Below are positions 4,087 to 7,147 of a DNA stretch of 64,000 nt, piece after piece. Within the stretch, counting starts at the first letter, position 1. The number at the start of each line of letters is the position of its first letter. The stretch is from positions 1 to 64,000 of the forward strand of contig JAIETM010000007.1 in NCBI GenBank assembly GCA_019745155.1, written 5' to 3'. The notes under the pieces are model-generated. The model saw only the letters and a program-made list of their open reading frames with translations. It ran no database searches and was not told the origin of the DNA. A program made the translations under genes and the position numbers. Source of the stretch: Chitinophagaceae bacterium. Its GTDB lineage: Bacteria > Bacteroidota > Bacteroidia > Chitinophagales > Chitinophagaceae.

Positions 4087-5205
4087 ATGGCAACCAAGGC
4101 TTCGGGCTTTAAATATTATTTCAGGCTTTTCTTTCTGATCATCAATTTAGTTGTAGCGCTTTTTTTTGCACTAGGCTGTTTCTCTCCGCTGTTGAATCCG
4201 GTTGATTTTTGGCCATCAGGTTTTGTGTCGCTCTTGATGCCTTACCTAATCATTACGTTGTTGTTCTTTGTGTTGTTCTGGCTCATCATGCGCCCAATTA
4301 TTGCCATTTTTCCTGTAGTGGTTTTATTGGCGGGTTATCAGCAGGTTTCATCCATTTTTGCTTTTCAATATACTGAGCGATTTCAGATAGCAAAAGCAAC
4401 CGGTGCTATCCGTGTCATTACTTGGAATATTCATGGATTTAATGGATTGAGTGGTACCAAATCAACATTGCGCCTGATTCGCGAAGAAATATTCAAGACT
4501 ATCGATGAGTCTGGTGCTGATGTAATCTGTCTGCAAGAATTCAACCATAGTACTAAGATGGAAGTGCGTTCAGACAATATTGGTTTGTTTCAAAAAGCAT
4601 TTCCATATTATTACTTTTCGCACGACTATGCTTTCAGCGATCATTACCAAGCTGGAACCATACTTTTCTCCAAGCTGCCCATTGTTGATACGGGTAAGAT
4701 TCGTTACGCCAACGGAGAGCACCTGATCTGGGCTGATGTGGTAAAAGACAAAGACACCATTCGTGTGTATACTACCCACTTGCAATCTTTCAATTTTGGT
4801 ATGGAAGATTATGCAAACATGTACGATTTAAAAGAGGGCGAAGCCAATCCGCTTAGCTCATCACGTCCTATCCTGCGCAAAATGCGCGAAGCTTTCCGTT
4901 ACCGAGGCACGCAAGCAGATATGATTGCACAAGCTTTAGCACAAAATCAGCTGCCTTCCTTTATTTGCGGCGACTTTAACGATGTGCCCGGATCTTACAC
5001 GTATTTCCGTGTTAAGGGAGATAGGCAGGATGTGTTTCTTAAAAAGGATTTTGGCATCGGCAGAACCTATAATTCTTTGGCGCCAACCCTGCGTATCGAC
5101 TATATCCTGCCCGATCAGCAGCTGGAAGTACTGCAATGTGATCTGGTAGATGAAGGCCTCAGCGATCACCAGATGCTGATTGCCGATCTGCGTGTGCGAA
5201 AATGA
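4087..5205 (+). CDS. Membrane-anchored endonuclease/exonuclease/phosphatase-family protein
   Basis: About 100 N-terminal residues hold three hydrophobic helices. An EEP-fold domain follows, recognisable by VITWNIHGFNG, DVICLQEF (metal-binding Glu), FICGDFNDVPGS and the terminal LSDHQMLIADL with the catalytic His. The 372-residue length fits Bacteroidota EEP proteins with an N-terminal membrane anchor. The family hydrolyses phosphodiester or phosphomonoester bonds with Mg2+, but the substrate (nucleic acid, phospholipid or inositol phosphate) cannot be deduced. The catalytic domain probably faces the periplasm. It follows the two rhomboids and has its own -7 element three bases before ATG. Confidence 0.8.
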   Translation: MATKASGFKYYFRLFFLIINLVVALFFALGCFSPLLNPVDFWPSGFVSLLMPYLIITLLFFVLFWLIMRPIIAIFPVVVLLAGYQQVSSIFAFQYTERFQIAKATGAIRVITWNIHGFNGLSGTKSTLRLIREEIFKTIDESGADVICLQEFNHSTKMEVRSDNIGLFQKAFPYYYFSHDYAFSDHYQAGTILFSKLPIVDTGKIRYANGEHLIWADVVKDKDTIRVYTTHLQSFNFGMEDYANMYDLKEGEANPLSSSRPILRKMREAFRYRGTQADMIAQALAQNQLPSFICGDFNDVPGSYTYFRVKGDRQDVFLKKDFGIGRTYNSLAPTLRIDYILPDQQLEVLQCDLVDEGLSDHQMLIADLRVRK

Positions 5206-5207
5206 TG

Positions 5208-5216
5208 TAATTTCGA
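5208..5216 (+). promoter_or_regulatory. Candidate -7 element TAATTTCGA for the cysS leader
   Basis: One mismatch to TAnnTTTG (TTCG). It begins three bases after the stop of the preceding gene and ends six bases before the leader-peptide ATG at 5223. The predicted transcript therefore has only a few untranslated bases before the small ORF. Confidence 0.45.
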
Positions 5217-5222
5217 GCCTCG

Positions 5223-5264
5223 ATGCCAATACAGTTGTCCATAGTTCGTTGTTGTTGTTGCTGA
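5223..5264 (+). CDS. Putative polycysteine leader peptide upstream of cysS
   Basis: A 13-codon ORF encodes MPIQLSIVRCCCC and then TGA. Its last four sense codons are TGT TGT TGT TGC. It lies 52 bp upstream of the cysteinyl-tRNA synthetase start and just after a plausible -7 element. By analogy with amino-acid attenuation leaders, ribosome stalling at the Cys codons when charged tRNA-Cys is scarce could increase cysS expression. Complementary segments support an RNA switch: AATACAG (5228-5234) with CTGTATT (5278-5284), and GTTGC (5257-5261) with GCAAC (5270-5274). There is no U-tract terminator, so control at the cysS start is more likely than classical termination. The Cys run lies in a (GTT)n stretch, so chance is possible. 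Confidence 0.5.
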   Translation: MPIQLSIVRCCCC

Positions 5265-5316
5265 TTCCCGCAACCCGCTGTATTATTCTATTGCATCAAC
5301 GTTCAATTAGTACATC

Positions 5317-6822
5317 ATGTCATTAAAAGTCTATAATTCACTTACCCGTCAGAAAGAAGTATTTACGCCAATCATCGAAGGCCATGTGGGCATGTATGTC
5401 TGCGGTCCAACAGTAAGTGGCGAAAGTCACCTTGGTCATGCACGTCCCTTTATCACATTCGATGTGGTGTATCGTTACCTCATGCACCTTGGTTACAAAG
5501 TGCGTTACGTGCGAAATATTACGGATGCTGGTCACTTTGAAGAAGAAGGTCGCGAGGCAGAAGATAAGATTAGCAAAAAGGCAGCAGTAGAAAGATTAGA
5601 ACCGATGGAGCTGGTGCAGAAATACACCAATCTCTATCATTGGGCTATGGCACAGTTCAATAACCTGCCACCAAGCATCGAGCCAACTGCAACAGGACAT
5701 ATAGTAGAGCAGATTGAGATGATCAAAAAGATCATCGAAGATGGTTATGCATATGAAGCAAATGGCTCTGTGTATTTCGATGTAGAGAAATATCACCGCG
5801 ATTACAGCGCCAAGGGTATGCCTTATGGTATGCTCAGTGGTCGTAATCTAGATGAGCAATTGGATACCACGCGTGAATTGGATAATCAGGAAGAGAAGCG
5901 TAATAAAAGCGATTTTGCCTTATGGAAAAATGCGCCGCCAGAACACATCATGCGTTGGGCTAGCCCTTGGGGCGAAGGTTTCCCCGGCTGGCATATTGAG
6001 TGCTCTGCGATGAGTACAAAATATTTGGGTGAAGAATTTGATATCCATGGCGGTGGTATGGATTTACAGTTTCCACACCATGAATGTGAGATTGCACAAA
6101 GTACGGTGTGCAACCACAAAACGCCTGCTCGCTATTGGTTACACAATAACATGATTACCATCAACGGTAAGAAGATGGGTAAGAGTTATAACAATGTGAT
6201 CAAGCTGAGTGAGCTGTTTGCAGGCACACACCCAATATTAGAACAGCCTTATCATCCAATGACGATTCGCTTCTTTATTCTGCAGTCGCATTACAGAAGT
6301 ACATTGGACTTTAGTAATGAAGCATTACAATCTGCAGAAAAAGGGATGAAGCGTTTGTGGGAAGCGTATGAGAACCTGCAGAAGTTGAGTACGGATAATG
6401 CTAGTGCAGCCGATACGGCACTGGATCAGAAAGTACAGCAATTACTCGCTGAGTTATACGAGTTCATGAATGATGACTTGAATACAGCGAAAGTATTGGC
6501 GAACTTGTTTGAGCTGGCACCGATTATCAATAGCATTCGTCACGGACAAACAGCAGCCAATGCTGTAGCGGGAAGTACGATTGCCAAAATGCAGCAATAC
6601 TTTCACCTGTTTCTGGAAGAGATTTTCGGATTAAAAGCAGAACAGGCGAATGACGACAATAAGCTGGGTGGTGTATTACAACTGCTGATTGATATTCGCA
6701 AAGATGCCAAGAGTAGAAAAGATTATGTGACCAGTGATAAAATCCGAAATGAATTAGCAACTTTGGGTATACAACTCAAAGATGAGAAAGACGGAAGTGT
6801 GAGTTGGAGTATTAACAATTAA
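5317..6822 (+). CDS. cysS: Cysteinyl-tRNA synthetase
   Basis: This class I aminoacyl-tRNA synthetase of 501 residues charges tRNA-Cys in the cytoplasm. Signature features are the N-terminal [18 protein letters not shown], which holds the zinc-ligand Cys and the HxGH-type ATP motif. WHIECSAMS and [18 protein letters not shown] carry further zinc ligands. [10 protein letters not shown] is the KMSKS-type loop. The DALR-like helical C-terminus is complete. The length is somewhat above the E. coli enzyme (461). It is preceded by a possible cysteine-responsive leader ORF and followed after 10 bp by a YHS lipoprotein gene that may be cotranscribed up to the terminator at 7156. Confidence 0.96.
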
Positions 6823-6832
6823 AATTATTTAC

Positions 6833-7147
6833 ATGAAAAAGATCAGTGTGCTTTGTTTATTGGCTTTAGCCGTGGCCTGTAAGAACGGAGAGAAAACAGA
6901 ATCTACAGAAGCCATGACGCCGGCTACTACAGATAGTGCTGCTGCTGAAACTGCGCGCTTTACACCGGCAATGGTGTACAATAAGAAAGATCCTTCTTGT
7001 GGTATGCCTGTTACAGCAGGTATCAACGATACTGCTCATTATAAGGATAAAGTATATGGTTTCTGTGCAGAGGGTTGCAAGCAGGATTTCCTCGCACATG
7101 CAGATGAGATGGTTGCACAAATTGAAAAAGAGAATAAAGAACAATAA
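6833..7147 (+). CDS. YHS-domain lipoprotein, probable metal-binding
   Basis: This 104-residue protein starts with a lipoprotein signal peptide (lipobox LAVAC, Cys at residue 16). A Thr/Ala-rich linker follows, then a YHS-like domain. The domain includes DPSCGMPV near the middle and YGFCAEGCKQDF near the end. Its three Cys residues form the C...CxxxC arrangement typical of YHS domains, which are linked to copper and other soft metals. It is predicted to sit in the periplasm, attached to a membrane. It lies 10 bp after cysS and upstream of a metal-handling group (MerC-like, SCO1, Fur-family), which supports a metal role but does not prove one. Confidence 0.75.
   Translation: MKKISVLCLLALAVACKNGEKTESTEAMTPATTDSAAAETARFTPAMVYNKKDPSCGMPVTAGINDTAHYKDKVYGFCAEGCKQDFLAHADEMVAQIEKENKEQ

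Follow-up and report, generated by a model that had tools for sequence, protein, structure and literature searches.

Does the very short open reading frame that precedes the cysteinyl-tRNA synthetase gene cysS in a Chitinophagaceae bacterium sense the supply of cysteine, or is its terminal run of Cys codons an accident of the GTT repeat in which it lies? The locus belongs to a stretch of 64,000 nucleotides, referred to here as the window. Translation confirmed the claim of the original prediction that a 13-codon ORF (sORF) with four terminal Cys codons stands 52 nt 5' of cysS; the -7 element proposed 7 nt ahead of its ATG matches TAnnTTYG, and the two sets of complementary segments are likewise present, together with the CAAC at 5297-5300 (Table 1). 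The stop codon of the upstream gene ends at 5205 and the box follows directly after it. On the other side of cysS, 10 nt past its end, a small lipoprotein-like ORF with several Cys was recognized by eye (6833-7147), which is possibly co-transcribed. From the comparison of sequences presented here we consider it highly likely that this sORF serves cysS as a leader peptide that senses cysteine.

Table 1. The cysS leader and its surroundings in the window.
Feature	Position	Strand	Basis
Box TAATTTCG, matching the Bacteroidota -7 box TAnnTTYG (predicted promoter P1)	5208..5215	+	7 nt 5' of the sORF ATG; predicted
Leader sORF MPIQLSIVRCCCC, followed by stop	5223..5264	+	Translation of the ORF
Cys codons 10-13, TGT TGT TGT TGC, abutting the stop (proposed sensor)	5250..5261	+	Sequence; Cys frame ATG-open in 35/37 (TGY)3+ runs of the family
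Outer pairing AATACAG (5228-5234) / CTGTATT (5278-5284)	5228..5284	+	Sequence complementarity; enrichment in relatives not significant
Stop-codon hairpin GTTGC-N8-GCAAC	5257..5274	+	Predicted fold; 5' arm formed by the last Cys codons, stop inside the loop
Spacer, 52 nt, C > G	5265..5316	+	No intrinsic terminator found
cysS, cysteinyl-tRNA synthetase (proposed regulated gene)	5317..6822	+	TIGR00435, 456.5 bits (cut-off 340)

In the 200 nt upstream of cysS in the window, none of 5000 dinucleotide shuffles gave an ATG ORF of 6-45 codons with four terminal Cys. An ATG ORF with at least three Cys among its last eight residues appeared in 68 of 2000 shuffles, so the single sequence of the window is in itself only moderately surprising. 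The genome to which the window belongs (97% complete) contains 56 TGYTGYTGYTRA sites (three Cys and a stop). An ATG ORF no longer than 45 codons ends at 13 of them, and of these 13 only the cysS leader also has a TAnnTTYG box within 22 nt.

The conservation of a Cys-ending sORF before cysS in relatives, proposed as a check together with the prediction, was found. The start of cysS was placed in 142 loci, 135 from the family of the window and seven from other families of the same order; in six of the loci (G038, G064, G145, G059, G057, G127) no ATG occurs within 30 nt of the match and a GTG/TTG or the start of the match was taken, and in two others, L155 and L164, which lie at the beginning of contigs, the offset was assigned manually. 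By a strict criterion (ATG only, 200 nt, at least three Cys in the last six residues) a poly-Cys sORF precedes cysS in 34 of the 135 family genomes, compared with a mean of 0.2 and a maximum of 3 in 100 rounds of shuffling and with none in the antisense control, though most genomes of the family are without it. The next-largest residue under this criterion was Lys (4, shuffle mean 0.75). When CCC or at least three Cys in the last eight residues were accepted, the number rose to 40 of 135, the strictness of the first rule being the reason for 34 rather than 40; by this looser criterion 95 genomes (about 70%), close relatives included, have no such sORF. None of the seven cysS loci from other families of the order carries a poly-Cys sORF. 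For the analyses below, a set of 39 leaders was obtained by leaving out G151, where the Cys residues are scattered, and a set of 37 by further removing the near copies G002 and G144.

The sORFs of the family comprise 11-27 codons with 3-7 Cys each (n=39), and their N-termini are variable, in contrast to the preserved box, Cys run and stop, as in MKHLHLYCCYCCC, MARYSIYTCCCCCC and MNAPRLLFCCCC. A relative of the same genus with a CysS of 99% identity (G002) has the sORF MPIQLSIVCCCCC followed by the stop. In ungapped comparison its leader differs from that of the window at 1 of 111 positions, against 103 of 1500 in cysS and 83 of 588 in the upstream coding stretch, and the sole difference in the leader, CGT in the window and TGT in the relative, gives the latter a run of five Cys. 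Another member of the genus (G001, CysS identity 73%) encodes MKKQTCFTCCCCCC and a stop. Mapped on a tree of 52 CysS rows, the sORF is clustered, needing 11 changes versus a shuffled mean of 17.0 (2 of 500 shuffles were as low), and patchy, as 20 of the 30 rows of one supported clade carry the sORF. In G074, a relative without the sORF, a TATCTTCG box is located 50 nt upstream of cysS.

A still looser test (CC in an upstream ORF shorter than 40 codons with any start codon) matched 14 of 80 named loci. In L033, L035, L036 and L054 a Cys-rich run ends shortly before cysS, L036 being the locus of Segetibacter aerophilus NBRC 106135; L041 and L044 are doubtful, and the ORF of L034 starts with GTG and contains two Cys. 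The seven matches from other phyla (L063, L064, L072, L077, L085, L094, L099) look like chance. None was obtained by this test among the 16 loci of other Bacteroidota with a CysS identity of at most 60% (L045-L048, L050-L053, L055-L058, L060-L062, L108).

The caveat that the Cys run could be an artefact of a GTT repeat falls away in the relatives, because the Cys codons of the 39 family sORFs are a mixture of 78 TGC and 102 TGT and because the Cys frame is the open one. Among 37 runs of three or more TGY triplets upstream of cysS, collected irrespective of frame, 35 are ATG-open in the Cys frame; the Val/Ala frame is open in one and the Leu frame in three, all four of them open in the Cys frame too, and two runs are open in no frame.

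The placement of the sORF relative to the predicted promoter P1 is conserved as well. A TAnnTTYG box was found in the 22 nt before the ATG of the sORF in 30 of the 37 leaders (shuffle mean 0.9, maximum 4), and in 27 of these 30 it ends 4-8 nt before the ATG, 7 nt in the window. Given the location of such -7 boxes relative to the transcription start, a box so close to the ATG places the predicted start in such a position that the sORF is probably leaderless or nearly so, which supports the near-leaderless arrangement originally proposed. In the phylum few messages are leaderless: the available portions of two reports give 5.5% in F. psychrophilum (PMC9723704) and, for 5'UTRs shorter than 10 nt, about 3.7% in B. 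thetaiotaomicron (PMC7366714). Judged by these comparisons the sORF, its Cys run, its frame, the box and the position are under selection.

Within the spacer a second box, TAnnTTTG, occurs in 19 of the 37 leaders (shuffle mean 1.5, maximum 5); the spacer of the window has no exact match. Eleven of the 19 sit 9-13 nt past the stop of the sORF; with the -33 consensus and its spacing from the -7 box, this would allow the TTG repeat within the Cys codons to function as the -33 element for a second promoter, P2. Such a promoter may be an addition to the coding explanation and not its replacement, and since the second box is present in 19 of 37 spacers, some of the cysS expression may escape the leader.

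Searching 137 genomes for five Cys codons and a stop gave 85 sites, spread over 59 of the genomes; nine of the sites are before cysS and at least two before cysH, and cysH was therefore examined. A poly-Cys sORF precedes cysH in 20 of the best 30 loci (88 of the 137 genomes have a cysH-type match), with a shuffle mean of 0.13 (maximum 1 in 30 rounds) and none in antisense; by eye, the sORF is further from the box in these leaders. There is no cysH match in the genome of the window, and no link was seen between having the cysS leader and having cysH (27/38 vs 60/96, p 0.42). Among 28 class-wide cysH loci from outside the family, four have a poly-Cys sORF; these four (L402, L403, L405, L406) come from a single genus, g119, of a different family, and their sORFs end 104-138 nt upstream of where the cysH match begins.

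The 250 nt before the cysH match also contain at least one of the related hexamers GTAGAC, GTCTAC, GTGGAC, GTCCAC, GTCCAT and ATGGAC in 24 of 30 loci (L285-L314), compared with a shuffle mean of 4.5 (maximum 9) and with 17 of 142 cysS upstream regions; TAGACTA is found in five of the 30 (shuffle mean 0.26). By eye the motif is often part of a palindrome close to the -7 box, and it possibly represents the operator of a sulfur regulator.

The 85 sites consisted of 30 loci that were read, 47 that were further fetched (45 of them scored) and eight already known cysS or cysH sites. Six of the 30 terminate a short ATG ORF: two before cysS, one before cysH, L270, and L263 and L271, which have no evident target gene. 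Among the 45, 13 terminate a short ATG ORF, one with a box, and about nine of the 13 look like chance, as do most of the other five-Cys sites. Several single sites were noted: a boxed sORF, MNTVNNIHILMCNDSCCCCCC, upstream of a gene that Pfam assigns to the alpha/beta hydrolases and that resembles MetX by eye (L349); poly-Cys sORFs preceded by a GGTAGACTAATA-type motif upstream of TonB-receptor genes (Pfam; L322, L351) and, by eye, of a CarboxypepD_reg-like gene (L325); and L270, where the poly-Cys sORF follows TATTTTCG, with TTTGGTAGTGTAATA upstream, and the next gene is glutamate dehydrogenase-like.

The folding of the leaders was analysed for signs of the output. When the last 15 nt of the sORF together with 22 nt of the spacer were compared with shuffled spacers, the local hairpin was more stable than expected (mean z -1.17, t -6.6, 37 leaders), individually below 0.05 in only seven of the 37; the z of the window itself is -0.8. 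At least four pairs bridging or touching the stop codon were predicted in 35 of 39 cysS leaders and in 16 of 19 cysH leaders. If spacers were swapped among the cysS leaders, the own spacer was found to fit the Cys tract slightly better (4.0 vs 3.66 nt, p 0.008). The mean z of the hairpin in the cysH leaders is -1.10 and their swap test was negative (p 0.41, 19 leaders); G130, which has an 8-nt spacer by the chosen start, was excluded from the 19 cysH spacers. Pairing of the spacer with the 5' part of the sORF (mean z -0.34, t -1.65, below 0.05 in 5 of 37 leaders) or with the Cys tract (mean z -0.28, 37 leaders) was not significant, and the stability of the whole leader is not unusual (mean z -0.34 in 37 leaders; 0.56 in the window against shuffles). 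Of the two pairings originally pointed out, the GTTGC/GCAAC helix at the stop has counterparts in relatives, and the outer type, 5228-5234 with 5278-5284, is not significantly enriched (mean z -0.34).

The further proposal that stalling changes the fold and raises the translation of cysS found no support in folding. In simulated stalling, where the size and offset of the ribosome footprint were rough choices, the cysS start became easier to open by a mean of 0.4 kcal/mol and by more than 1 kcal/mol in just six of 39 leaders; in the window the opening costs 1.7 kcal/mol in the free and 1.6 in the stalled state. In the region 5100-5400 of the window no terminator-like site was detected and no Rfam family, T-box included, matched at E up to 1, and by eye the spacers of most relatives have no T-run after the stop hairpin. 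Rho-loading RNA is richer in C than in G. The excess of C over G is 0.117 in the spacers of the 37 leaders vs 0.038 in 46 5'UTRs without an sORF (p 1.4e-4; the control was limited to 5'UTRs, since an earlier non-sORF control was confounded by promoter sequence), which suggests compatibility with Rho loading.

Based on these features, the conserved leader very probably fits a cysteine-responsive leader-peptide attenuator, and its working could be pictured as follows. The P1 transcript would begin at the AUG of the sORF or a few nucleotides before it, and because the message starts there, the first ribosome would read the sORF. With charged Cys-tRNA at hand the ribosome would traverse the Cys run and leave at the stop, after which the small hairpin could form round the stop codon, the C-rich spacer would stay untranslated and P1-driven cysS would be held down. 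If charged Cys-tRNA is scarce, the ribosome would halt on the Cys codons and block the hairpin, and more cysS message or protein would result. We infer the Cys codons as sensor, the stalling and the direction of control from the anatomy of the leader and from known attenuators. As to the output, we favour, as a guess and at somewhat less than even chances, loss of the transcript in the spacer after release from the sORF, either through termination by Rho or through decay of the RNA, which the stalled ribosome would prevent, over masking of the start site or an intrinsic terminator.

A first rival explanation, translational attenuation of the mycobacterial type, in which RNA folding would hide the cysS start until a ribosome stalled on the Cys codons frees it, shares the sORF design, and the accessible text of PMC13236596 places cysteine genes of M. 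smegmatis under translation attenuation. Six of the 39 leaders would open more easily by over 1 kcal/mol; however, the remaining 33 do not exceed this value, the mean effect is 0.4 kcal/mol and the window hardly changes (1.7 vs 1.6), which makes masking unlikely. Classical transcription attenuation with an intrinsic terminator has a parallel in uORFC-8-2 of Rhodobacterales, a Cys-coding uORF upstream of the same gene (PMC8632094, as far as its available text goes), but the lack of terminator-like sites in 5100-5400 of the window and, by eye, of a T-run in most spacers of the relatives renders it improbable here.

That the TTG repeat is merely the -33 element of P2 and the ORF incidental would agree with the TAnnTTTG boxes in 19 of 37 spacers, 11 of them at 9-13 nt past the stop, which puts the Cys run near -33; this leaves unexplained the ATG, the open Cys frame (35/37), the mostly immediate stop, the 78 TGC codons interrupting the TTG repeat and the P1 box, and the spacer of the window has no TAnnTTTG, thus we hold it for even less probable than the intrinsic terminator, although the repeat may have a P2 promoter role alongside the leader. 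A Cys-rich micropeptide acting in trans, for instance in metal binding, would account for the Cys-rich end, yet only the Cys run is kept while the N-termini differ, and the sORF sits before both cysS and cysH; it appears very improbable. Least of all can we believe in a chance ORF in a GTT repeat: the 68 of 2000 shuffles of the upstream region of the window that yield a loosely similar ORF are outweighed by the statistics of conservation, frame and box, which refute it.

A wider reading of the cysteine-sensing leader is conceivable, though we regard it as rather doubtful: poly-Cys leaders might define a cysteine-charging regulon of the Chitinophagaceae and at least one more Bacteroidota family. 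The regulon would include cysS, cysH, TonB receptors and a MetX-like gene and would be superimposed on an operator for sulfur genes. Its output would do without masking of the start and without an intrinsic terminator: what becomes of the transcript would be gated by a leaderless, stalled ribosome together with a hairpin at the stop codon, and an internal promoter with its -33 element inside the Cys codons would exist alongside. The many natural variants and the two target genes are available for probing the output step, and they offer a handle on the sulfur regulation of the group.

Genes of Bacteroidota are mostly without Shine-Dalgarno sequences, therefore the usual coupling between leader and gene may not apply. 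That Shine-Dalgarno sequences are mostly lacking is stated for flavobacteria in the available part of PMC9723704. The same source suspects leader peptides before amino-acid biosynthesis operons of F. psychrophilum, and leader peptides or leader-like sORFs are suspected in 5' regions of B. thetaiotaomicron (PMC7366714); these cases are from the same phylum, and the accessible portions of both papers describe no poly-Cys sORF or cysteine control. Among the titles and abstract openings returned by our literature search, which covered mainly open-access papers, none concerns poly-Cys leaders in Bacteroidota. The leader is a variant on a theme familiar from other bacteria, and for this phylum we found no description of it.

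In mycobacteria, leaderless sORFs that encode polycysteine function as cysteine attenuators (Canestrari et al. 2020, doi 10.1111/mmi.14498), and leader peptides with a Cys run and without a terminator hairpin were predicted for cys operons of Actinobacteria (PMC1262725), as far as the available parts of these papers report. The Chitinophagaceae leader is similar to both in being a short ORF with Cys codons near the stop, upstream of cysteine genes, and in the window, too, no terminator hairpin was found; the mycobacterial sORFs are leaderless, and the present one is predicted to be near-leaderless from its box. In contrast to them, it belongs to another phylum and targets cysS, in relatives also cysH, and, compared with the mycobacterial leaders, folding indicates no switch masking the start site and a second box is present in about half of the spacers. 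uORFC-8-2, for which ribosome-mediated attenuation was proposed, carries a tandem pair of Cys codons, in most cases codons 14 and 15, and two stems with an intrinsic terminator, according to the accessible text of PMC8632094. Consecutive Cys codons in an upstream ORF before cysS and their participation in a stem are common to the two systems, whereas here there are 3-7 Cys near the stop and no terminator was found in the window. If our interpretation is correct, a cysteine-sensing leader peptide of the sort described in Rhodobacterales and Actinobacteria has arisen, or has survived, in Bacteroidota as well.
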